From Sedimentibacter hydroxybenzoicus DSM 7310 (GTDB lineage: Bacteria; Bacillota; Clostridia; Tissierellales; Sedimentibacteraceae): 64,000 nt of DNA. Under the pieces are notes generated by a model. That model saw nothing but the letters and a program-made list of their open reading frames with translations, made no database searches and was not told the origin of the DNA. Shown piece by piece: positions 38,405 through 53,299 of this stretch. The stretch lies in NCBI RefSeq assembly GCF_013403245.1, contig NZ_JACBNQ010000014.1, positions 1 through 64,000 on the forward strand, given 5' to 3'. Position 1 is the stretch's first letter, and the number at the start of each line of letters is the position of its first letter. A program made the translations under genes and the position numbers.

Positions 38405-38463
38405 AAAAAACTCCTTTCATATATGTAATACGAAAAGAGATGCAAAAGCAATCTCCTTTCTAA

Positions 38464-38602
38464 ACAGACGACCCAATTTTTCAATTTGGTGTCGGTCGTT
38501 TATACTGTAAGTGCAACGGGAGGTATGACCGTTTCCGGTCAAACCCTGACAGTTTACAATTCATGTACTGAGCTTTAGAATTGTAAACTCGGAGAAATAA
38601 AA
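38464..38602 (-). promoter_or_regulatory. Moco/Tuco-type riboswitch in the tupA leader
   Basis: On the minus strand the leader has CTCCGAG, an 11-bp perfect stem (38551-38561 with 38579-38589), the conserved GGGTTTGACCGGAAACGGTC core (38527-38546), then CCTCCCG, which are hallmarks of the Moco RNA family. Placement before a tungstate importer suggests the tungsten-cofactor (Tuco) form. A hairpin GACCGACACCAAATT / AATTGGGTCGTC (38466-38499) lies between it and the tupA start and may be the expression platform. Confidence 0.85.
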
Positions 38603-38615
38603 TTTCATACATACA

Positions 38616-42783: not shown

Positions 42784-42804
42784 AATAACTCCCATCTTTT
42801 TCTT

Positions 42805-43020: not shown

Positions 43021-43050
43021 AACCCAAAGGGGACGGTTCTTTTTGGGTCA
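43021..43050 (+). repeat. REP element A
   Basis: ACCCAAA..GGGGACGGTTCT..TTTGGGT forms a short hairpin carrying the GGGGACGGTTCT signature found at 49348, 50877 and 51888 around the RAYT gene. Confidence 0.7.
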
Positions 43051-43116
43051 CTACTATCATAACTCATTTGCAGCCTATTTGAGCCTATTTGTGTCTGCCG
43101 TAAATAAAAGTAAATG

Positions 43117-43145
43117 TTGACAATCAATTGCATATACTATAAAAT
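43117..43145 (+). promoter_or_regulatory. Promoter of the argS T-box transcript
   Basis: TTGACA (43117-43122), 17 bases, TAAAAT (43140-43145), just upstream of the T-box leader. Confidence 0.6.
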
Positions 43146-43154
43146 AACCGGAAA

Positions 43155-43385
43155 TAGACAACTGTAAATTCTGTGAAGAGAATAGTAACTGTCATGCATC
43201 TAGCAGCGAGTGGGAACAGAGTGAGAGTCCTGCAAGAGAACCGACAGCGAAGAGGGACTCCGAGAGGACATCTGAGCAATGCAAGGATGGTACGTTAACT
43301 GCGTTAAAGTAATTGAGTGGACTTAGGTCAATTTGAGTGGTACCGCGGATTTCAACCCGTCTCATTATATGAGGCGGGTTTTATG
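43155..43385 (+). promoter_or_regulatory. T-box leader of argS
   Basis: The leader has a stem I start (AAGAGAATAGTAA), CTGTC/GACAG helix, the conserved T-box sequence TGAGTGGTACCGCGG (43334-43348), and a terminator with arms AACCCGTCTC and GAGGCGGGTT (43354-43382). Three bases after the GACAG helix lies AGA (43251-43253), which is an arginine codon and fits the gene it precedes. Confidence 0.93.
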
Positions 43386-43428
43386 ATGGAAAATTTTATT
43401 CAAAATAAAATATGATAAGGATGATTAT

Positions 43429-45195
43429 ATGGAAAAATTAATCAAAATATTAAGCAAGGAAGTAAGTGATGCTTTTGAAAAATGTGGATATGAAAGTTAT
43501 CTCGGCAGCCTGACAGTATCAGACCGTCCTGATTTATGCCAGTTTCAATGTAACGGAGCTCTTACAGCAGCTAAAAGATATAAAAAATCCCCTTTACAAA
43601 TTGCAAACGAGATTTTAAATGTACTTAAAGATAGCTGCAGCTTTAAGGATATTTCTTCCGCCGGTCCCGGCTTCATCAATTTAAACGTAAATGACAGTAT
43701 GTTAGCTGATTATTTAAATATGATGAACAGAGATGAAAAGTGCGGATGCGACAAAGCCAACAATATTTTAACGATTATCGTGGATTATGGCGGAGCTAAT
43801 GTTGCAAAGCCCCTGCATGTTGGGCATATACGAGCCGCAGTCATCGGAGAAGCAATAAAAAGAATCTCAAGATTTTTGGGGCACAACGTTATAGGTGATG
43901 TTCACTTAGGAGATTGGGGACTACAGATAGGAATGGTTATAACCGAGCTTAAGAGACGTATGCCCGGACTTCCCTACTTCGATGAAAATTATACTGGTGA
44001 ATATCCTACAGATGCCCCGTTCACAATAAGTGAGCTTGAAGAGATATACCCTACTGCGAGTGCTTTCGCCAAGAATAACGAAGATGCAATGGAAGAAGCA
44101 AGAAAAGCAACATTTGAGCTTCAGGCAGGAAGGAAAGGCTATGTGGCACTTTGGAGGCATATTTTAAATGGATCCGTAAAGGATTTGAAAAAGGTATACG
44201 GTTCTTTAAATGTAGAATTTGATTTGTGGCTCGGAGAAAGTGATTGCGAGAAATACATTGACGAAATGGTTAAATATCTGAAGGAGAACAACTATACTTA
44301 TGAGAGTCAGGGTGCATTAGTGGTTGACGTTGCCAAAGAAAGTGACTCCTCCGTAATACCTCCTGTCATGATATTAAAATCGGACGGGTCGTCATTGTAC
44401 AGTACGACAGACATTGCTACTATCTGGCAGAGAGTTGAGGACTATAATCCGGACATGATAATATATGTTGTTGATAAAAGACAGGATATGCATTTTGAAC
44501 AGGTTTTCAGATGTGTTAAAAAAACAGGGATTGCAAGCGAAAATCTGTCCTTGGAATTCATCGGATTCGGAACAATGAACGGAAAGGACGGCAAGCCTTT
44601 TAAAACCAGAGAAGGCGGTGTCATGAAGCTGCAGGATTTAATCGAAACTATACAAAGCAGTGTGCTTGATAAGCTTGATGCAAGCAAGGGATTCAGTGAA
44701 GAAGAAATGGGTGATGTTGCAAGAAGGGTCGGATTATCCGCATTGAAATACGGGGATTTATCCAATCAGGTCACAAAGGATTATGTCTTTGACATAGAAA
44801 AATTTTCTTCATTTGAAGGAAATACAGGTCCATATATTTTATACACCATTGTAAGAATTAAATCCATTTTGAACAAAGCATGCTCAAAAGAAAAATACTG
44901 CGGCTCTGATTTGATACAAAAACCATACAGTCAGTGCGAGCTGGATTTGATGCTGAAGCTTTCAAAGTTTAACGAAACTATAGAGTTCAGCTTTTTAACA
45001 AAAGCTCCAAACAAGCTGTGCGAATACATGTATGATTTATCCAATACCTTCAATAAATTTTACCACAGCAACAGAATTATAAGCGAAGAAAATCAAGAAA
45101 AGAAAAGCTCTTGGCTGTGCCTCAGCAGCCTGACAAAGAAAGTTTTAGAAACCTCCGTTGAACTGCTTGGAATCGAAGTTCCCGACAGAATGTGA
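43429..45195 (+). CDS. argS: Arginyl-tRNA synthetase
   Basis: The 588-residue class I synthetase has the N-terminal Add-1 domain, the HIGH-type motif in NVAKPLHVGHIRAAVIGEA (near 125) and the KMSK-like region GKPFKTREGGVM. A C-terminal DALR anticodon-binding domain follows (LSNTFNKFYHSNRI near the end). ArgRS commonly lacks a canonical KMSK. It is controlled by an arginine-specific T-box. RBS AAGGATG, ATG 43429. Confidence 0.95.
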   Translation: MEKLIKILSKEVSDAFEKCGYESYLGSLTVSDRPDLCQFQCNGALTAAKRYKKSPLQIANEILNVLKDSCSFKDISSAGPGFINLNVNDSMLADYLNMMNRDEKCGCDKANNILTIIVDYGGANVAKPLHVGHIRAAVIGEAIKRISRFLGHNVIGDVHLGDWGLQIGMVITELKRRMPGLPYFDENYTGEYPTDAPFTISELEEIYPTASAFAKNNEDAMEEARKATFELQAGRKGYVALWRHILNGSVKDLKKVYGSLNVEFDLWLGESDCEKYIDEMVKYLKENNYTYESQGALVVDVAKESDSSVIPPVMILKSDGSSLYSTTDIATIWQRVEDYNPDMIIYVVDKRQDMHFEQVFRCVKKTGIASENLSLEFIGFGTMNGKDGKPFKTREGGVMKLQDLIETIQSSVLDKLDASKGFSEEEMGDVARRVGLSALKYGDLSNQVTKDYVFDIEKFSSFEGNTGPYILYTIVRIKSILNKACSKEKYCGSDLIQKPYSQCELDLMLKLSKFNETIEFSFLTKAPNKLCEYMYDLSNTFNKFYHSNRIISEENQEKKSSWLCLSSLTKKVLETSVELLGIEVPDRM

Positions 45196-45229
45196 TAATA
45201 AAAAATATCTTTTGACTTTGCTTTGATTC

Positions 45230-45300
45230 ATTCCGTGGATGGACTTTAAGATACCTATAATCAATTTGTAAATTCAAACTCAAATATCCGTCCACGGAAT
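45230..45300. repeat. Inverted repeat with 14-bp arms
   Basis: ATTCCGTGGATGGA (45230-45243) and TCCGTCCACGGAAT (45287-45300) pair with one wobble around a 43-base AT-rich centre. It lies between argS and the yoeB stop and may act as a terminator or be a small mobile-element remnant. Confidence 0.5.
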
Positions 45301-45331
45301 TTCCATTACGTCTCTCCATTGATTCCAATGA

Positions 45332-45595
45332 TTAATTATCGTCATAATGAGATCGGCATTGAGCTATCTCAATCAGTCCATTGTTTATACGATAAACGAG
45401 TCTGTTTGTATCGTCAATACGACGACTCCACCATCCAGAAAAATCACCTTTTAATGGTTCTGGTTTTCCTATGCCATTATATCCATTTCGTGAAATGTCT
45501 TGTATTAAGAGGTTAATACGCTTCAATGTTTTTCGGTCTTGATTCTGCCAGTATAAATAATCTTCCCATGCATCATCCTGCCATAATTTATTCAT
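45332..45595 (-). CDS. YoeB-family mRNA interferase toxin
   Basis: The 87-residue protein aligns along nearly all of YoeB: WEDYLYWQNQDRKTLKRINLLI, GKPEPLKGDFSGWWSRRIDDTNRLVY and C-terminal CRSHYDD. The catalytic Glu, Arg and His-Tyr residues are present. It cleaves mRNA at the ribosomal A site. ATG 45595 is chosen because GAGG lies six bases upstream and the start overlaps the antitoxin stop. It pairs here with a RelB/DinJ-type antitoxin rather than the usual YefM. Confidence 0.9.
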   Translation of the reverse strand: MNKLWQDDAWEDYLYWQNQDRKTLKRINLLIQDISRNGYNGIGKPEPLKGDFSGWWSRRIDDTNRLVYRINNGLIEIAQCRSHYDDN

Positions 45596-45845
45596 ATTCA
45601 TCCTCAATCAATTCATGTATCTTACCTTTACCTGCTTCAAGATCCTCAATTGCTTTTCGAAGATGTCTCTGATTACTTTCGCTGTAAAACGGATCAATTT
45701 TCAACTCAAAAGGAATACCATTGCAACGAACTACCTGTTTTAAAAACATTGTAGTTGCGGCAGAAAGACTTATACCAAGCTCGGAAAATACTACTTCTGC
45801 CTGTTTTTTCAACGTATCATCAACACGAATATTTAAGTTTGCCAT
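45588..45845 (-). CDS. RelB/DinJ-family antitoxin
   Basis: The 85-residue protein has a ribbon-helix-helix N-terminus (ANLNIRVDDTLKKQAEVVFSELGISLSAATTMFLKQVV) typical of RelB/DinJ, and a C-terminal tail (about 50-85) that would wrap the toxin. It overlaps the toxin start by a few bases. A palindrome over the -35 region suggests autorepression. ATG 45845 follows GGGAG. Confidence 0.88.
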   Translation of the reverse strand: MANLNIRVDDTLKKQAEVVFSELGISLSAATTMFLKQVVRCNGIPFELKIDPFYSESNQRHLRKAIEDLEAGKGKIHELIEDEYE

Positions 45846-45867
45846 AATTTTCACTCCCTTCAAGTTA

Positions 45868-45911
45868 ATTGTAATGCAATTTTCGTAATATGTCAACACA
45901 AATTACGAAAA
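45868..45911 (-). promoter_or_regulatory. Promoter and palindromic operator of the toxin-antitoxin pair
   Basis: TTGACA (45891-45896) and TACAAT (45868-45873) are 17 bases apart on the minus strand. TTTTCGTAAT (45880-45889) and ATTACGAAAA (45902-45911) are exact inverted arms flanking the -35, the expected place for autorepression by the antitoxin. Confidence 0.75.
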
Positions 45912-46047
45912 ATCATAGAAATCCATTGAGCACGGTCTCCTTAGTCATTCTCGCATCAAATCAATTAAATTTCATTAAATATTTTAAGCACTGCGCCTAT
46001 TCTATCAATTCTCAGGTCTAATTTCCGTTTATAAGGAAGTTAAAATT

Positions 46048-47511
46048 TTAATCTTCTCTTGAAGATTCATATGTTGTGTAATGCTGCTTTTTTTTATCCG
46101 AAAACATATATGCCCCGCTTATGATTTTCTCATCGGTTCTTGCATATGGCAGATGAAGAGGTCCGGAATTATGCATATAGTTGAAGCTAGAAAATGTTAT
46201 ATAAAATTCAACTTCGTCGGGAATTTCATAACTGTAAAGCACATAACCTCGCTGATCCTTCGAACCAAAAGGATAGCTCAGCGTACCTGATACAGGTGTG
46301 GTATAAGATGATCCAAACATAGTATTTTGTATAACCTCTTCGCATACGAGATTTGGAAAATCTGCACCATATGAGATTCCGTCCTTGCTGTAAAACAAAC
46401 CGCTGCTGACGATTTTCTTGTTATTTACCTCATTTTCTCCTGAAATCAGAATGCCATCCTGCCATACAGGACTTCCGCCTTTCCACGCAAAGTATTGCAT
46501 GACATAAATCAGATTTTCAGGCATTTCGATGTAGATTGTAGTTACATCTAAATTATTCTTACCCGGTTCGTAGGTATAATTTATCGAAGTGTGATTTCCA
46601 TATGTGGTGCGGTGTTCAATCTCTTTTGGATCAAACATGAGAAGCTCACTGACTGATTCAATATTTACAGCATCAATTAATTTTTCAACATCCTCTTCAC
46701 TTAAGCGATTAAGAGCCTCAGTGGGAAATCCTGCATTGACAAGGCTATGCCTCATCGGAGTCATTTCCGGTAAATAAAATCTTTGGGGCTTTAATCTTAA
46801 ATGGTTGGAAAATATACTGCAGATTATGACAATCATAAGCGCGGTAACAAAATATGCTCGGCCAAAGGTTTCACTGTTAATTTTTACAGGTGCATTTGTC
46901 AACACATAGCCCGTATCATCCAACTCATTGCCTATTCTGAACAATGACCGTATAATCAATATATAGAATATTACCATAGGTATGAAGGATAACCAACTTT
47001 GGGACAGAGGTGACAGCGCTATGAAAAATGATGCTGCTGTCCATGCTGCAATCCGATAAAACGGATTATATTCAGGTACTTTGCCCGCCTTTTTATATGC
47101 TTCATTCAAAGCCGCCTGAGAAATCATAAACATAATTATTTGGAAAATAAACATTACAGTTCCTATAGGAATTGTAATGTAATCCAACATGTTCAGCGGT
47201 GTTGAAATCCATACAAGTCCTGCTAAATGTAAAATCAATCTGAATATTGAAAAAATATATACTGTTTTAAAATACCTGTTTTCATTCCTTAAGCTGCGAA
47301 ATCCCAGAAAAATCAAAGCTGTACCGATTGTTGGCAAAATATATTGAAGATATAAAAAGTTCAGATGCAGTGTTGTAAGAGAGAATCCCCATGCAATTGA
47401 ACCTATGGATTTGCTCCAAGGGTTTGTTTTGAGAATTTCGTATTCAGGAGGATCAAGGTGACTGAGGCTATCAATCATCTTGGCATCAAAATCAAGGTTG
47501 TTCTTATTCAT
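46048..47511 (-). CDS. Polytopic membrane protein, probable anti-sigma-type partner
   Basis: The 487-residue protein has an N-terminal cytosolic stretch, about six to seven hydrophobic segments (about 45-230), then a large extracytoplasmic domain (about 245-487) without recognised family. It overlaps the ECF sigma gene by four bases (ATGA), the typical arrangement of a sigma factor with its anti-sigma or regulatory partner. The N-terminal DSLSHLDPPEYEILKTNPWSK has an anti-sigma-like feel but no zinc-finger motif. Function is inferred from position. Confidence 0.6.
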   Translation of the reverse strand: MNKNNLDFDAKMIDSLSHLDPPEYEILKTNPWSKSIGSIAWGFSLTTLHLNFLYLQYILPTIGTALIFLGFRSLRNENRYFKTVYIFSIFRLILHLAGLVWISTPLNMLDYITIPIGTVMFIFQIIMFMISQAALNEAYKKAGKVPEYNPFYRIAAWTAASFFIALSPLSQSWLSFIPMVIFYILIIRSLFRIGNELDDTGYVLTNAPVKINSETFGRAYFVTALMIVIICSIFSNHLRLKPQRFYLPEMTPMRHSLVNAGFPTEALNRLSEEDVEKLIDAVNIESVSELLMFDPKEIEHRTTYGNHTSINYTYEPGKNNLDVTTIYIEMPENLIYVMQYFAWKGGSPVWQDGILISGENEVNNKKIVSSGLFYSKDGISYGADFPNLVCEEVIQNTMFGSSYTTPVSGTLSYPFGSKDQRGYVLYSYEIPDEVEFYITFSSFNYMHNSGPLHLPYARTDEKIISGAYMFSDKKKQHYTTYESSRED

Positions 47512-48050
47512 TGTATACCTCCTAATTTAGTTTGAAGCTTTTTGCGTATGCGATACAACTTTCCCTCAACAGAACGATTTGTCATGCCAAGCTCTGCGGC
47601 AATTTGAGAGGTCTGCTGAAGATAATAGTATTTACGGTAGAAAATATGCTGTTCATCAGACGAAAGGAAGGATATGGCACGCTTCAGTTCTTCTGCCTGT
47701 TCACGACGCAAAACATCGTCTTCAGGTGAAGAGTGCACGGCGTTTTCTTCGTTCAGCTCTTCATATCCAGTGTTTTTCCTGTGATAATTTAAAGCTGTAT
47801 TTCGTGCTATAACGGTGAGCCATGTGGAAAATTTACTCTTTTGAGCCGAATAACTTTCTATTGAATTCCAAACCTTCATGCATATATCACTTATGCACTC
47901 TTCCACATCATTTCTATTTTCTAAAATTCCTGACACTACATAGTGCATCAACCCCGAATATTTATCATGTAAAAGCTTCATACCTTCATCCGTCCGGGAT
48001 TTAATAAGCTCTATAACCTTATCGGAATCATTTTTGTTGGAATCACTCAT
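47508..48050 (-). CDS. ECF-type RNA polymerase sigma factor
   Basis: The 180-residue protein has region 2 (HYVVSGILENRNDVEECISDICMKVWNSIESY and FSTWLTVIARNTALNYHRK) and region 4 (SSDEQHIFYRKYYYLQQTSQIAAELGMTNRSVEGKLYRIRKK). No region 3 is present, as expected for an ECF sigma. ATG 48050 follows GGAGGTG; a longer frame to 48194 has no ribosome site. It is coupled by overlap to the membrane protein downstream. Confidence 0.9.
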   Translation of the reverse strand: MSDSNKNDSDKVIELIKSRTDEGMKLLHDKYSGLMHYVVSGILENRNDVEECISDICMKVWNSIESYSAQKSKFSTWLTVIARNTALNYHRKNTGYEELNEENAVHSSPEDDVLRREQAEELKRAISFLSSDEQHIFYRKYYYLQQTSQIAAELGMTNRSVEGKLYRIRKKLQTKLGGIQ

Positions 48051-48138
48051 AGGCACACCTCCTCGACCGTCTAATATATTATACACGTTAATTTGTAGAA
48101 TCCCACGGAATATTTTTATAATACATGTGCAATGAGAC

Positions 48139-48177
48139 TTTGGAGACGAAGAATTGAAACCAAAATGCGTCTCCAAA
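48139..48177. repeat. Palindrome upstream of the sigma gene
   Basis: TTTGGAGACG (48139-48148) and CGTCTCCAAA (48168-48177) form a 10-bp perfect stem with a 19-base loop about 90-125 bases upstream of the sigma start. It could be an operator or a hairpin of the sigma-operon leader. Confidence 0.45.
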
Positions 48178-48254
48178 ACGCACCCAAAATTCATAGAAGA
48201 ATTCTTTTGAAAAAATTATTGATATTAATTGTTTTATGGTATATCATGTATAAT

Positions 48255-48476
48255 AATATATTGCTGTGATGAGAAGCAGTAAGCATTCATGGACCAAAGA
48301 GAGGAATCATGCGGTGAGAGTTTCCGTCCCTCTGTATGCTGAACCCGTCTCGGAGCTTTTGGGAGTAGCAACCCAAACGGTGAAGCCGTTATTTTAAATG
48401 AGATGCTGCATTGCAGCAATTAGAGTGGTACCGTGGACAATTCCGCCTCTTTGTAAGAGGTGGATTTTATTTTTTG
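48255..48476 (+). promoter_or_regulatory. T-box leader of the proC-like gene
   Basis: Stem I elements (GATGAGAAGCAGTAAGCAT), AGCAT/ATGCT helix, then GAACCC with CCC (48344-48346) three bases after the helix, a proline codon. The T-box motif is AGAGTGGTACCGTGG (48422-48436) and the terminator hairpin CCGCCTC / GAGGTGG (48442-48464) with T-run follows. Proline control agrees with the encoded enzyme. Confidence 0.88.
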
Positions 48477-48495
48477 ATATTATAAGGAGGACTTT

Positions 48496-49341
48496 ATGAA
48501 AAAAGAAATAGGAATAATTGGAATAGGAAACGTAGGCTCTATGCTGTTACGCAAATTTACGGAGTTCAACATATTCAGAGAGGAAAATATTTGTGTGGCA
48601 AATCGCTCAGAGGAAAAATTAGAGAGCCTTTCAATAAAGTATCCTGACATAACCATCTGCAAAAACAACATCGAACTTACACAGAAATGCAAAAACATTT
48701 TGCTTTGTGTTGAACCCTTGAATTTACCGGATGTATTGATGGAAATTCAGCCATATACCGATTCTGAAGCATATCTGATGGTATCAACCTCCATGGTTGC
48801 CGTGGAGGATATACAAAAATTCCACGATGGAGGCATAACCATATTCATGCCAACACTGATATCAATGGTTAACGGCGGGGTGACACTTGCATATCACAAC
48901 AGCAGAGCAGACAATAATCAAAAGACATTCTTCCATAACTCCCTGAAGCAATTCAGCGAGGTAAAAATATTGGAAGAGTCTGATATCAATATATGCCAGA
49001 ACATGACGGCAAGCTTTCCGGGCTTTTTTGCAGAAATAATGCTGGAATTCGTCAAATCCGCATCTGTAAAAAGCCGAAATGTATCTGATGAAGAACTTGA
49101 GCATATGCTTTTAGTTTCCTTGCTTGGAGCATCAAGGCTGCTTTTGGAGAAAAATATGAGCTTTGAGGAAACCATAAATCGTGTATCAACCAAAGGCGGC
49201 ATCACATATGAAGGAGTGAAGGTTTTCGAGAAAAGTCTCCCTGATGTATTTTCTGAAGCATTGTGCGCATCCATGAGCCGTTACAAAGAAATAACAAAAA
49301 TTGCTTCCACGGATATCGACAAGCTGAAGTCACAGAAGTAA
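48496..49341 (+). CDS. Pyrroline-5-carboxylate reductase family protein (ProC/ComER-like)
   Basis: The 281-residue protein has a Rossmann fold (IGIIGIGNVGSMLLRKFTEF), the conserved NMTASFPGFFAE segment and the C-terminal STKGGITYEG, the ProC signature where canonical enzymes have TPGGxT. It resembles the ComER/ProC branch, more divergent than housekeeping ProC. The proline T-box in front supports a role in proline synthesis (final step, P5C to proline). RBS AAGGAGG. Confidence 0.82.
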   Translation: MKKEIGIIGIGNVGSMLLRKFTEFNIFREENICVANRSEEKLESLSIKYPDITICKNNIELTQKCKNILLCVEPLNLPDVLMEIQPYTDSEAYLMVSTSMVAVEDIQKFHDGGITIFMPTLISMVNGGVTLAYHNSRADNNQKTFFHNSLKQFSEVKILEESDINICQNMTASFPGFFAEIMLEFVKSASVKSRNVSDEELEHMLLVSLLGASRLLLEKNMSFEETINRVSTKGGITYEGVKVFEKSLPDVFSEALCASMSRYKEITKIASTDIDKLKSQK

Positions 49342-49347
49342 TACAAA

Positions 49348-49401
49348 GACCCAGAGGGGACGGTTCTCCTTGTCCTTGGGTCAATTCTCCCTCTGGAGTC
49401 C
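49348..49401. repeat. REP element B and hairpin between converging genes
   Basis: GACCCAGAGGGGACGGTTCT..TTGGGTC carries the REP signature, and CCAGAGGG pairs with CCCTCTGG (49390-49397). It lies between the proC-like gene and the GNAT gene that ends at 49402. Confidence 0.65.
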
Positions 49402-50166
49402 TTATTCCATGCACCATTCCGGCAATGAGCCTTTTATAGCCCACCACGAACTTACACTTTCACCGGAAAAGCCTAATTTTCTGTAAATACTTGCCGCATC
49501 GGGATTATCTGTATACAAGTAAATCAATGAATTATCATAATGCTGTATAATGTTGTTTACTACGGCCATTCCATATCCCTTACATCTCATTGAAGATGTT
49601 GTGTATACATCTGAAATGTAGACAACATTGCTATATTTTTCTGCCAGTGCCATACTGACAGGCTTTTTGAATTCATCATAAGCAAAAAACATTTTACTTC
49701 CCGAAGCTAATTGCTTATTCAAAAGCTTTACACCATACGTTTTGCCATTATCCTGCTCTATTGCCAGGCTGTATTCCCGCCCCTCAAGAGGAGGATTTAT
49801 AGTTTTTATTTCAGGTTTTTCAGCAATTTTATCTTCGATACTGTTTGCATCCAAAGTCATAAACTCCATGTCGAATTCTCTTATTGCATACCCATGATTT
49901 ATAAAATATGGCTTTAATATATCCAACTCTACCGATCCGAGGCGATTAAATATTTTAGGAACTATATTTCTCGAATCATAATATTCTTCTACTTCCATTA
50001 TTATTTCATCAATATTTTCATTTCTGTAAACAACTGCATAATTTGATGTGTAGCTTTCTTTATTTTCTGTATCACAAAGCATTCTACCCCATGATGTCAA
50101 TTTATGATCCAAATACGACATTGGGCTGTATTTTTCAAATTGAGTAATTTGTTCTGAATTTTTCAT
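49402..50166 (-). CDS. GNAT-family N-acetyltransferase
   Basis: The 254-residue protein has a variable N-terminal half and a C-terminal GNAT domain (about 130-245) with VYTTSSMRCKGYGMAVVNNII as the acetyl-CoA loop (RxxGxG/A region) and YTDNPDAASIYRKLGF at the end. Substrate unknown. Located next to a methyltransferase on the same strand, 43 bases apart. RBS AGGAGA. Confidence 0.82.
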   Translation of the reverse strand: MKNSEQITQFEKYSPMSYLDHKLTSWGRMLCDTENKESYTSNYAVVYRNENIDEIIMEVEEYYDSRNIVPKIFNRLGSVELDILKPYFINHGYAIREFDMEFMTLDANSIEDKIAEKPEIKTINPPLEGREYSLAIEQDNGKTYGVKLLNKQLASGSKMFFAYDEFKKPVSMALAEKYSNVVYISDVYTTSSMRCKGYGMAVVNNIIQHYDNSLIYLYTDNPDAASIYRKLGFSGESVSSWWAIKGSLPEWCME

Positions 50167-50209
50167 ATGTTTTTCTCCTGAAGATATGTCGTAATAAAAA
50201 CTATAAATT

Positions 50210-50848
50210 CTACTCTGATTTTATGTTTTCAACCACTAATACACCCGCGCAATGGGATATTTTATCATAATTACAGTAATATAAATCATTAAGACTATTC
50301 ATTATATTATTCGCGACAAAATAAAATTCATCATTATCCCAGTCTTCCTTATGCAGCTCCCTGCATTTATTTAATTCCTCACTTGTTTCAAAGGAAACGT
50401 CTCCTATTAATATTTTACCATTTGTATTTAATAATTTTGTGAGAGCCTTTATAAATTCAACTTTTGCTTCGTCAGACAAATGATGAATCGCATATGTACT
50501 TATTATATAATCATATTTATGGCCTGCTATCTCATTTGGCAGACCCTTCGAAAAATCCCAGTTTATTAATACGGCATCAGGCATTTTATCCTTTGCAATA
50601 TCTATCATACTGCTTGAAAAGTCAATTCCCGTAATACCGTAACCATCATTATATAATTGTGTTGTTAATACTCCGGTTCCAAATCCAATATCCAAAACAT
50701 TTGAACTACTGCTTTCTCTAACCTTGCTGTAAATATAATTTAACACACCCTTATATCCGGCAAATGGATATTCATTGTTTTCTTCACTCAGATTTACGCT
50801 TTTATCATAACCATCTGCCCACAAATCAAATCCTTTACTGTCTAACAT
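50210..50848 (-). CDS. Class I SAM-dependent methyltransferase
   Basis: The 212-residue protein has motif I VLDIGFGTGVLTTQL (about 48-62), motif II GIDFSSSMID and IISTYAIHHLSDEAK as a motif IV-like segment. It is in the ubiE/YodH-like class with no substrate evidence. It is upstream of the GNAT gene and downstream of a REP element. RBS GAGGAGA. Confidence 0.82.
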   Translation of the reverse strand: MLDSKGFDLWADGYDKSVNLSEENNEYPFAGYKGVLNYIYSKVRESSSSNVLDIGFGTGVLTTQLYNDGYGITGIDFSSSMIDIAKDKMPDAVLINWDFSKGLPNEIAGHKYDYIISTYAIHHLSDEAKVEFIKALTKLLNTNGKILIGDVSFETSEELNKCRELHKEDWDNDEFYFVANNIMNSLNDLYYCNYDKISHCAGVLVVENIKSE

Positions 50849-50876
50849 ATTCGTTTTCTCCTCTTCACTATACCTC

Positions 50877-50906
50877 GCCCCGGAGGGGACGGTTCTTTTT
50901 GGGTCA
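50877..50906 (+). repeat. REP element C, left of the RAYT gene
   Basis: CCCCGGAGGGGACGGTTCTTTTTGGGTCA is 3 bases from the end of the transposase gene. It is oriented with GGGGACGGTTCT on the plus strand, inverted relative to element D on the other side. Confidence 0.75.
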
Positions 50907-50909
50907 TTG

Positions 50910-51710
50910 TTAACTGTTTTTATTTAAAATTTTAAGTACTGTACCTTTGCTTATATTTGCTATTGCAGATATTTGTCTTGAAGATAGGTCAAATTCATAT
51001 TTTAAATAAATTACTGTTTTATTTCTTATATCACGATTTTCTCTCATTGATAAATCTTTAGAACATAATCCTTTTGGCAATAAAATATCGTTTAAGGCTT
51101 CTATAGCTTGTCTTTCTTTCTCTACTTTTAATTCTTCTTTTTCTATAAAATCTATAAACTTAATATCACAATCTAAATTACTAAAATTAATAAATTGTTT
51201 GATAGCCAACGATATGTTTTCAGAAAATAAATTTAGTACTTTATCAGTTACTAAGTCATTTCTTTTCTTGGTACTGATATAATCATTATAACTACTCCAT
51301 AGATATTTTTCCGGCGAACTTACTATACCTGCTTTTACCGGATTGTTATGGATATATCTTACAACTGCCAATAAATAATCATCATTGTCTACAATTTCAC
51401 TTTTAAATCTATCCTGAAACAGATGCCCCACTCGTTTATATCTTTTATTGAAATAATATACATAGCTAACATTAATTCTTTTCATTAATATTGCTATATT
51501 GTCATCTTCTTCATGTAATAATAAATGAACATGATTGTTCATTAAACAATAAGCATATATACGGATGTTTTCCTCAGAAGCTTTTTCAAACAGTGTCGAA
51601 ATAAAGCGTTTTCTATCTTCGTTATCCAAAAAAATTATTCTTTTATCATTGCCGCGTATCATAATATGATAAATACCTGTGTCGCTATGTACCCTTGCTT
51701 GTCTTGGCAT
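50910..51710 (-). CDS. REP-associated tyrosine transposase (RAYT, IS200-like Y1 domain)
   Basis: The 266-residue protein has the IS200/TnpA_REP fold: MPRQARVHSDTGIYHIMIRG at the N-terminus, the HUH metal motif NNHVHLLL (His 60, 62), and the Tyr region DDYLLAVVRYIHNNPVKAG (Tyr 112/119). A C-terminal helix-turn-helix (SSRQISAIANISKGTVLKIL) is unlike minimal IS200 proteins and typical of RAYTs. It is bracketed by inverted REP copies whose signature recurs elsewhere in the window. RBS AAGGAG. Confidence 0.9.
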   Translation of the reverse strand: MPRQARVHSDTGIYHIMIRGNDKRIIFLDNEDRKRFISTLFEKASEENIRIYAYCLMNNHVHLLLHEEDDNIAILMKRINVSYVYYFNKRYKRVGHLFQDRFKSEIVDNDDYLLAVVRYIHNNPVKAGIVSSPEKYLWSSYNDYISTKKRNDLVTDKVLNLFSENISLAIKQFINFSNLDCDIKFIDFIEKEELKVEKERQAIEALNDILLPKGLCSKDLSMRENRDIRNKTVIYLKYEFDLSSRQISAIANISKGTVLKILNKNS

Positions 51711-51887
51711 ATTACCACACTCCTTAAATTATCTTATATGTAACAAAAGGATTATGCCTTGCTATGATGAAATAATATAAATAACTATTGTTTCTATAAC
51801 AATATACTATAAAAATATACATGTCAATACGGACTTGTTAAATAGTGGAATTTGCAGTGTATGCGATTCACAAAATCAAGACTCTCG

Positions 51888-51942
51888 TTGGGTCATATGT
51901 GACCCAAGAAGAACCGTCCCCTCTGGGTCTCCCCTCTGGGTC
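51888..51942 (-). repeat. REP element D, right of the RAYT gene
   Basis: TTGGGTCATATGTGACCCAA is a perfect 20-base palindrome, followed by GAAGAACCGTCCCCTCTGGG and a second CCCCTCTGGGTC. It is the inverted counterpart of element C and forms a BIME-like array. Confidence 0.75.
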
Positions 51943-51943
51943 T

Positions 51944-53299
51944 TTAAAAGCGTAGTTGGACTGATGTGCCTTCTCCTTCTTTGCTTTTTATATCAATTGT
52001 TGCGAGGTGAGAGTCCAATATACTTTTTACAATCGTTAGACCTATACCGCTTCCCTCAGTTTCATGCCTGCTTTTATCTCCTCTGTACAGCCTTTCGAAG
52101 ATATAGGGCATGTCTTCATCGTTTATGCCTATACCGGTATCTTTGATTCCAATTATTATTTTATCGTCATTTTTACTTAAATTAATATCAACCTCTCCGC
52201 CTTTGTTTGTGAACTTGATGGCGTTATCAATGATGTTTATAAATACTTGCTTTAATTTGTCCTCATCACCGTTTATATAGTATTTTTCATTTTCATAACT
52301 AAAATTAAACGCAATGTTTTTTTCTTTTGCTTCTGACGAAAAATCCTTATGCATATTTTTTAGCAATGAAAGCAAATCCACCTTATGAAAATTTAATTTC
52401 ATGCTTTCATTTTCAAATTCCTTTAATTTGTCTAAATTGTTTAACAGTTTGCCGAATCTGATTACCTCATCATTCAAATGAGACAGCCTTTCGTCAGATA
52501 CGGGAAATATACCGTCAATCATTGCCTCTAAATTATTTTGAAGCACGTTTAAAGGTGTTCTTACCTCATGAGAAATGTCAGAGACGAGGCGTTTTCTTAA
52601 GGCATTCTGATTATCTAATTTTTCTGCCAGCTCATTTATACTGTTTCTTAGGTTTGCTATTTCTTCTATATTTGTTTTTATGGTAGTTTTTTCTTTAAAC
52701 TCACCTTTTGACAGCTTAACGGACATATTCGAAACCTCTGTTATCGGCTGCGAGAATTGCTTTGAATAATACAAGCTGACAAAAATTATTATAAAAATTG
52801 TAACAATACCACTCATCATTATGCTTTTATTCACAGAAGATTTAAATGCGGCATCTTCATCCGTCATTAACAGTGGAGAATATTGTCCGATTTCAACATA
52901 TCCCACAATTTCATTTTCAAAGTGCAATTCAAATTTCTTCGTTAAATAAACACCCTGATCCTGCACTTTCATATCATGAAGATGAACTTTATTGCGTATA
53001 TCCATTGGATTCATACCCCAAACTGGTATATTATTAATGTTATAAAGAGTTAGATTGTAATTGCTCATATATGCTTCATGCAATATTTCTACTCCCGAAA
53101 TTTCATTCCATTGACCTTCATTTTTATATAGCTCTTCTAATTGTGTAACTATTCTTTCATATCTTTTGTTTTGAACTGCTGTCATATAATCTTCAAATAT
53201 ATGGTTAATGGTAAAGTTAACAAACAGCATTATAAGCAAAATAGCCATGATGGAACAGGATATAATTAAAATGCTTAATCTCTTTCTTATTGTATGCAT
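51944..53299 (-). CDS. Membrane sensor histidine kinase
   Basis: The 451-residue protein has two membrane segments (about 8-28 and 165-185) around an extracytoplasmic sensor, and HAMP (about 185-240). The HisKA H-box is SDISHEVRTPLNVLQNN near 255 and the HATPase blocks are IIDNAIKFTNKGG and DTGIGINDEDMPYIFERLYRGDKS. It overlaps the response-regulator stop (TGATG), so the pair is translationally coupled. Signal unknown. A TTG upstream of the ATG is not used. Confidence 0.93.
   Translation of the reverse strand: MHTIRKRLSILIISCSIMAILLIMLFVNFTINHIFEDYMTAVQNKRYERIVTQLEELYKNEGQWNEISGVEILHEAYMSNYNLTLYNINNIPVWGMNPMDIRNKVHLHDMKVQDQGVYLTKKFELHFENEIVGYVEIGQYSPLLMTDEDAAFKSSVNKSIMMSGIVTIFIIIFVSLYYSKQFSQPITEVSNMSVKLSKGEFKEKTTIKTNIEEIANLRNSINELAEKLDNQNALRKRLVSDISHEVRTPLNVLQNNLEAMIDGIFPVSDERLSHLNDEVIRFGKLLNNLDKLKEFENESMKLNFHKVDLLSLLKNMHKDFSSEAKEKNIAFNFSYENEKYYINGDEDKLKQVFINIIDNAIKFTNKGGEVDINLSKNDDKIIIGIKDTGIGINDEDMPYIFERLYRGDKSRHETEGSGIGLTIVKSILDSHLATIDIKSKEGEGTSVQLRF

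Follow-up and report, generated by a model that had tools for sequence, protein, structure and literature searches.

A RAYT-type HUH transposase gene of Sedimentibacter hydroxybenzoicus in a probable TIRYT-like transposon with variable-stem hairpin ends

Introduction

HUH enzymes cut single-stranded DNA with a tyrosine and hold the 5' end. The present study concerns a gene for such an enzyme, of the REP-associated tyrosine transposase (RAYT) family, in a 64,000-nucleotide stretch of the genome of Sedimentibacter hydroxybenzoicus DSM 7310 (contig NZ_JACBNQ010000014.1, positions 1 to 64,000; hereafter the window), together with the inverted repeats on both sides of it and their relatives elsewhere. 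An original prediction, made from the letters of the window, had taken these repeats for repetitive extragenic palindromes (REPs). The sequence comparisons reported here indicate instead that gene and ends probably form a small single-gene transposon of the TIRYT (TIRtron) type, the dispersed repeats being non-autonomous ends similar to miniature inverted-repeat transposable elements (MITEs).

The closest described systems differ in their ends. In the excerpt available of Di Nocera, De Gregorio and Rocco (2013; PMC3733652), TIRYTs (TIRtrons) comprise a RAYT-like HUH gene with terminal inverted repeats (TIRs) instead of REPs, a GGGGWSAS-like motif, and dispersed copies that are moderately abundant and also occur as dimers. 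For the TnpA-Y1 subclass 2.1 of Quentin et al. (2018; PMC6006769, in part), no REP-like sequence is reported near the genes after automatic or manual search, and the mean is 1.9 copies per genome. Recognition of REPs through GTAG and the loop is described in the accessible part of PMC8266576. Finally, according to the portion of Nunvar (2010; PMC2817692) available, RAYTs give no sign of mobility like that of insertion sequences (IS), and the known members of the IS200/IS605 family are without TIRs.

Results and discussion

The transposase and its described relatives

The gene (50910..51710, minus strand) encodes a protein of 266 amino acids with the HUH motif N59-H60-V-H62, a putative catalytic tyrosine, Tyr119 (YIHNNP), and a C-terminal helix-turn-helix (HTH). 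The Y1 transposase domain PF01797 was found by profile search (E 6.3e-16), and N59, H60, H62 and Y119 are invariant across 107 aligned sequences, i.e. the window protein and those of 106 of the 110 RAYT loci introduced below (four were excluded for their length or for unread bases). With the NCBIfam model NF047646 (REP_Tyr_transpos, REP-associated tyrosine transposase), the window protein reaches 80.6 bits, barely above the cut-off of 80, and two long RAYT paralogues of the same genome score 72.5 and 73.5 bits, under it. The window protein therefore combines the traits that define a RAYT, namely the HUH pair, one tyrosine within Y---NP and the score with the curated family. Its predicted AlphaFold model (mean pLDDT 92.6) has a helical tail with an HTH-like end (helices 223-240, 244-251 and 255-264, pLDDT >90), and this tail matches sigma-70 region 4 (E 4e-4) below the Pfam threshold. 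The Y1/HUH transposase with a C-terminal HTH that had been predicted from the letters was thus recovered by these searches.

Among the matches listed, the closest RAYT is that of Sedimentibacter saalensis (71% identity). Five genes with PF01797 are present in the S. hydroxybenzoicus genome (3.81 Mb, 71 contigs), one IS200-like, three long RAYTs and one truncated RAYT; an alignment search (6 matches, 5 listed) adds a further partial RAYT.

The locus agrees with the TIRYTs in the RAYT-like gene with TIRs instead of REPs and in the moderately abundant dispersed copies, also in dimers, and may do so in the GGGGWSAS-like motif. The exact GGGGWSAS occurs in 31 of 212 flanks, GGGGACGG being one base off, and the motif belongs to some TIRs, not all. 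What the TIRYT description does not share with our loci is the common hairpin geometry, with a conserved loop and a variable stem, and the outer partial copies. With subclass 2.1, as far as the excerpt describes it, the protein has in common its size (median 238 amino acids there, 266 here), NHVH, Y---NP, TIRs rather than REPs, and the C-terminal HTH-like tail, present here as the predicted helices 223-264 and the sub-threshold sigma-70 region 4 match. The distance from HUH to Tyr is 57-59 residues in our sequences, and the medians are 58-67 in most TnpA-Y1 subclasses (same excerpt); the tyrosine motif, compared by description only, is here mostly YIH[QN]NP and not YIELNP or Y[IV]HLNP.

The top PDB match of the model in Foldseek is E. 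coli TnpA-REP (4er8, E 4e-8, over the HUH domain), and this REPtron likewise has flanking inverted hairpin repeats and dispersed copies. Whereas E. coli REPs have a conserved GTAG foot, here the foot and the stem vary, the loop is conserved, and an HTH tail is present. IS608 and ISDra2, of the IS200/IS605 family, resemble our loci in the HUH fold and in the hairpin ends, and single-strand chemistry would be expected by analogy; in contrast to that family, the ends are here inverted and symmetric, TIRs are present, and the RAYT is the gene of an 860-bp element at one of the loci (L106, see below). The kind itself is already known as TIRYT/TIRtron, and what is new is the variable-stem hairpin, the outer truncated copies and an identical pair of elements extending from foot to foot. 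In the open-licence literature, as far as its texts were accessible, no description was found of a hairpin with conserved loop and variable stem, of outer arrays or of a foot-to-foot duplication; the exact 12-mer GGGGACGGTTCT appeared in one unrelated paper.

Hairpin ends of the RAYT loci

A set of 110 RAYT loci was compared, 80 from named genomes (the best 80 of 554 that passed; at least 594 stretches matched) and 30 from a RAYT search of 199 genomes, L169 among the latter being a paralogue from the S. hydroxybenzoicus genome itself. Four duplicates (L172, L186, L195 and L198) were kept in the counts of core orientation and in the 107-sequence alignment and otherwise dropped; ends lying close to a contig edge or containing unread bases were excluded.

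A GGGGAC-type core is found on both sides of the gene, inverted, in 81 of the 110 loci, and in the opposite orientation in 7 of 110. These 81 loci, and the window with its 28-nt inverted repeat, thus have the non-REP TIRs around the gene by which a TIRYT is recognized. The end hairpin consists of a variable 6-bp stem, a conserved 15-nt loop containing (A)GGGGACGGTTCT, and the stem complement. For pairing, all ends with GGGACGG were taken (130 ends), using the core nearest the gene and irrespective of pairing. The six outer positions pair with the six inner ones in one fixed register, at frequencies of 0.68, 0.82, 0.83, 0.81, 0.74 and 0.58, other registers giving mostly 0.1-0.35 and in a few cases 0.4-0.62. 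The 129 distinct ends give 774 stem cells, of which 578 are Watson-Crick pairs, against a mean of 278 (SD 11, maximum 310) in 500 shuffles, and each of the six stem positions shows all four pair types. The stem varies and yet stays complementary, the pattern that recognition of a folded strand would give.

The stem is also a property of the individual element. Both ends of one gene have a common stem of at least 5 nt in 29 of the 31 loci with scorable stems at both ends, and only 11% of between-locus pairs have the stem in common. Stem sharing falls with protein identity, from 100% at 70% identity or more (9 pairs) to 34% at 50-70% (137 pairs), 10% at 40-50% (1148 pairs) and 6% below that (917 pairs). 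The top strand is predicted to be more stable than the bottom strand in 76 of 100 cases, equal in 7 and less stable in 17, the mean energy with shuffled loops being that of the bottom strand.

The designation of these repeats as REPs was not upheld. Of the 130 ends, 4 have GT[AG]G at the hairpin foot, compared with 1 of 130 in the control. None of the four window copies has it in this position on the GGGGAC strand; the copy at 43021 has CTAC (GTAG on the other strand) just beyond its inner arm. Of the original reading as a whole, the RAYT-family HUH transposase between inverted, dispersed repeats stands and the REP label falls; nor is this kind of system restricted to proteobacteria.

Partial copies outside the hairpins and evidence of movement

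The 60 nt outside each usable end were searched with the 8-mer starting 6 nt before the core. Extra copies of the element's own end were present outside the hairpin at 52 of 179 ends, and inside, over 60 nt, at 0 of 179; shuffles lead one to expect 0.14, and a matched probe from the inner arm gave 3 of 179. The outer copies are truncated, arranged head-to-tail and start at the 5' foot of the hairpin: in 31 of the 37 scorable cases among the 52 ends with arrays, the unit starts between -3 and +1 nt from the stem base. Where the units stop varies, and their lengths run from 9 to 51 nt. Orthologous or closely related loci differ in these arrays. A single 16-nt unit, placed precisely at the foot, distinguishes L116 from L129 (both Thermoanaerobacter; 94.6% over 3361 bp), and some 15 nt of array separates L170 from L171. 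Between L173 and L176 (97%), the changes directly beyond the ends are more complex.

The pair of identical elements comes from a Syntrophomonas assembly, in which L106 and L109, on the same contig, are identical over 860 of 860 bp; BLAST between the two 5.75-kb loci gave no match beyond these 860 bp, and the flanks are unrelated. On both sides the identity stops at a 5' hairpin foot; the two hairpins are inverted, and their stems have 5 of 6 pairs each. This one genome, which is metagenome-assembled and not that of the window, thus shows what is expected of a mobile element, namely recent copies whose limits are fixed while their flanks differ. Beyond the right end, two outer units (about 16 and 7 nt) are seen at L106 and three (48, 17 and 7 nt) at L109. 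A third copy in the same genome (96%, internally deleted and truncated) has the same left end within 1 nt and a 29-nt extra unit. Because the arrays differ among copies of one element, they probably arose at or after insertion. The hairpin ends, the outer truncated copies, and the identity of L106 and L109 with limits at the feet together lead us to conclude that this kind of RAYT probably still transposes.

Tandem GGGTCAG-type end copies were also noted by eye outside the gene at L263 and L265, distant RAYT relatives on plasmids of Skermanella and Pseudoalteromonas (Pseudomonadota), so that outer arrays may be wider than this clade. Four of the five plasmid matches inspected have an inverted repeat of the GGGGTCAG or GGGTCAG type, of 19, 19, 21 and 11 nt; L263 has none by that test. 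A search of viral contigs returned only 3 relatives.

Repeat number, gene presence and copies elsewhere in the genome

The relation between gene and repeat was followed in 199 genomes (own, genus, family and order), with RAYTs detected by alignment (A1, E 1e-10) in 84 of them. The 12-mer GGGGACGGTTCT is present in 68 of the 199, and its reversed string is sparse (at most 2 per genome); being a single string, it misses some loops, and the statistics are not corrected for shared descent. The mean number of copies is 6.56 in the 84 genomes with a RAYT and 0.64 in the 115 without, and at least 3 copies are found in 39 of 84 and 7 of 115, respectively (Fisher p 2e-11). Without one large family in which both are nearly absent, these become 39 of 77 and 7 of 42 (p 3e-4), and within the genus 13 of 15 and 4 of 10 (p 0.028; means 17.6 and 4.6). 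Nine members of the genus that are at least 90% complete and have a RAYT hold 3 to 70 copies; four without a RAYT hold 0, 0, 1 and 13. No exact GGGGACGGTTCT occurs in 33 of the 84 RAYT-positive genomes, and many RAYTs carry other loops. Repeat number follows the gene, with exceptions: the expectation that copy number would track RAYT presence holds for the means and fails in seven RAYT-negative genomes, which are taken up below. A comparison of dispersed insertions between two closely related congeners, G014 and G021, yielded only 2 and 4 occurrences of the chosen string, too few for a map of presence and absence.

The genome of S. hydroxybenzoicus contains 24 exact matches to GGGGACGGTTCT and 0 to the reversed string; the shorter GGGGACNG is barely informative (185 vs 147 matches). 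At least 4 of 6 stem pairs are kept in 14 of the 24 copies, and fewer in the other 10. An outer extra copy of the 6 nt preceding the core accompanies 7 of 24, one of which (L011) may be due to chance, and some copies are arranged as inverted pairs.

A second repeat family was observed in the same genome (L229-L234), with GGGGACGGACC or GGGGACGGTCC in near-perfect palindromes of about 60 nt, the inner arms of which vary between copies and keep their complementarity by compensating changes. One of these, L233, is a hybrid with the outer arm from the first family and the inner arm from the second. In addition, several GTGTCAAGGGGACGG units stand at the end of a contig (L238, contig C8, 1-300), and this array adjoins sequence common to the RAYT loci on contigs C47 and C48.

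Proposed mechanism and alternative explanations

We infer that the enzyme would have spread the dispersed copies and that it would cut at the hairpin foot, the latter because the 5' foot is indicated as the cut both by where the L106/L109 element ends and by where the array units start. In the proposed mechanism, single-stranded DNA folded into the hairpin is most likely what the HUH transposase binds, and Tyr119 would cut at the 5' foot of this hairpin, the element extending from one 5' foot to the other. The enzyme would then keep hold of the element's 5' end, which it could link to a free 3'-OH. If this transfer, or copying from the 3'-OH into the element, stopped early and rejoining followed, a truncated copy of the end would be left outside an intact hairpin, and repeated failures would build arrays. 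Abortive transfer or extension is accordingly put forward only tentatively as the source of the outer arrays. Priming from a nicked 3'-OH at a hairpin has an analogy in viral terminal resolution sites. By that analogy one could imagine that HUH enzymes transpose elements with symmetric inverted hairpin ends in a mode of their own: a nick at the 5' foot of a hairpin with variable stem and fixed loop would give a 3'-OH that primes copying into the element, aborted rounds leaving arrays of truncated end copies. As a whole, this reading is doubtful.

If it were true, genomic sequence by itself would reveal cut sites and past activity. On the spread of repeats by RAYTs, and their possible movement, one clade now offers a defined hairpin, an inferred cut position, identical copies in two places, and traces that look like a record of failed or partial events. 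These provide a few candidate substrates and cut sites, as well as an easily recognized sequence sign by which activity could be sought in many genomes.

Several observations weigh against a mobile element working in this manner. The left end of the window's own element does not fold, and 127 of 179 ends have no array. The column shuffles used for the stems ignore the relatedness of the sequences, which only the slid registers keep. Copies in seven of the 115 RAYT-negative genomes number 5 to 13 (G001 6, G007 12, G015 13, G023 11, G099 8, G102 6, G119 5); four of these (G015, G099, G102 and G119) are 94-97% complete, the other three 70-88%, and missing sequence is therefore a poor explanation. 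The Syntrophomonas assembly is a metagenome-assembled genome and L106 and L109 may reflect misassembly, yet the two share a contig and have different flanks. Neither a rule for target sites nor a precise empty site came to light. Plasmids seldom carry a RAYT, with 30 matches in 72,556 records, each below 60% identity. Two further ideas proved unsupported: that extra pairing within the loop through G-T wobbles causes the choice of strand (mean z -0.24 vs shuffled loops), and that the partial units grow towards the hairpin (in an unbiased count, 17 were longer, 11 shorter and 3 equal).

The outer partial copies might also have arisen by replication slippage at a hairpin with a G-run, with no involvement of the transposase. 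A hairpin or a G-run is a favourable site for slippage, many units end inside GGGGAC or directly behind it, and the junctions are mostly without extra bases (gap 0 in 31 of 52). Slippage is nevertheless hard to reconcile with the strong one-sidedness of the copies (52 of 179 outside, 0 of 179 inside, and 3 of 179 with the matched inner-arm probe), with their common start at the 5' foot at lengths from 9 to 51 nt, and with units that span the whole hairpin into the element, such as that of 48 nt at L109; we regard it as unlikely.

A further alternative, within the frame of the original prediction, is a domesticated, immobile RAYT maintaining a REP-like family in the service of the host. The low number of RAYT genes in the S. 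hydroxybenzoicus genome would suit such a role, as would the intergenic position of the four window repeats, the 14 of 24 copies with at least 4 of 6 stem pairs, and the link between gene presence and repeat number. The absence of the REP foot and the identical elements in new surroundings (L106/L109) speak against it, as do the 10 of 24 copies in the same genome with fewer than 4 of 6 pairs, and we consider it quite improbable. Even less credible, to the point of being barely worth considering, is that the dispersed copies are transcription terminators or other host hairpins that have a common loop by chance. Some copies are inverted pairs that would form strong hairpins, and those of the window are intergenic, but the constancy of a 12-nt string (24 matches vs 0 for its reverse) tells against this reading, as do the 81 of 110 loci in which one core type flanks a transposase gene on both sides.

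The repeat copies of the window

Turning to the window with a small transposon still as the preferred explanation, GGGGACGGTTCT has four exact copies there, at 43029-43040 (+), 49356-49367 (+), 50885-50896 (+) and 51910-51921 (-), all intergenic. With up to two mismatches there are 5 matches, where shuffles average 1.19 and reach 5 in 1 of 100. All four repeats were thus confirmed, each exact and close to where it had been predicted, and so was the inverted bracketing of the gene, the flanking copies forming a 28-nt inverted repeat (50879-50906 / 51900-51927, 93% complementary).

The two ends are not equally well preserved, and on this point the prediction needs correction. The right terminal repeat, upstream of the gene (51900..51929, minus), is an intact hairpin, GACCC-loop-GGGTC, with 5 of 6 stem pairs; directly beyond it lies a single truncated end copy (51930..51942, minus), recognized by its sequence in the count of extra copies. 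This partial unit adjoins the shortened 3' end of a histidine kinase gene (stop at 51944), the product of which ends in GEGTSVQLRF, whereas the kinases of the congeners G003, G007 and G022 continue for at least 4 residues further. In the left terminal repeat, downstream of the gene (50879..50906, +; core GGGGACGGTTCT at 50885-50896), the outer stem arm has decayed: the copy (50877-50906) has GCCCCGGA in place of the GACCCAGA of several other copies, and 3 of 6 stem pairs.

The two dispersed copies differ likewise. That at 43021..43050 (+) is an intact hairpin with 6 of 6 stem pairs, and that at 49348..49401 (+), between a pyrroline-5-carboxylate (P5C)-reductase-like gene and a GNAT gene, has a displaced inner arm and 2 of 6 pairs in the fixed register. 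The prediction of secondary structure gave a similarly divided result, with z -1.71 for the DNA fold of the 43021 copy and z -1.36 for that of the right end (51896-51945), but z 0.43, no better than shuffles, for the left end. The window element has an intact gene and one intact end, and because the second end has decayed it may have lost its own movement.

The 8.9-kb segment and neighbouring features

The inverted copies also bound a segment of about 8.9 kb (43021..51942) containing argS, a RelB/YoeB-type pair, P5C-reductase-like, GNAT and methyltransferase genes, and the RAYT. The loci flanking it are adjacent in at least three congeners: in G003, G007 and G022, the genes for a sigma-54-type regulator (start at 42795 here) and the kinase are neighbours, with the matches about 55-57 bp apart. 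In G006 and G009 the flanking matches are about 270-280 bp apart, and in G014 and G021 they are separated by about 11.5 kb of other sequence. Because the flanking genes are adjacent in G003, G007 and G022, the sequence between about 43.0 and 51.9 kb is here either additional or displaced. Its limits coincide with the inverted copies at 43021, about 50 bp from the break in synteny (about 42971), and at 51942; composite movement and recombination between copies would both fit.

Three other features of the window were recognized. A T-box leader (48257-48453; Rfam, 101 bits) is located upstream of the P5C-reductase-like gene, and stretches similar to it match many places in genomes of the genus. 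Outside the segment, a molybdenum/tungsten cofactor riboswitch was identified at 38437-38606 (minus; Rfam, 52 bits). The toxin–antitoxin pair of the segment, a YoeB-like toxin gene and a RelB-like antitoxin gene, was assigned by Pfam to positions 45332-45899 (minus).
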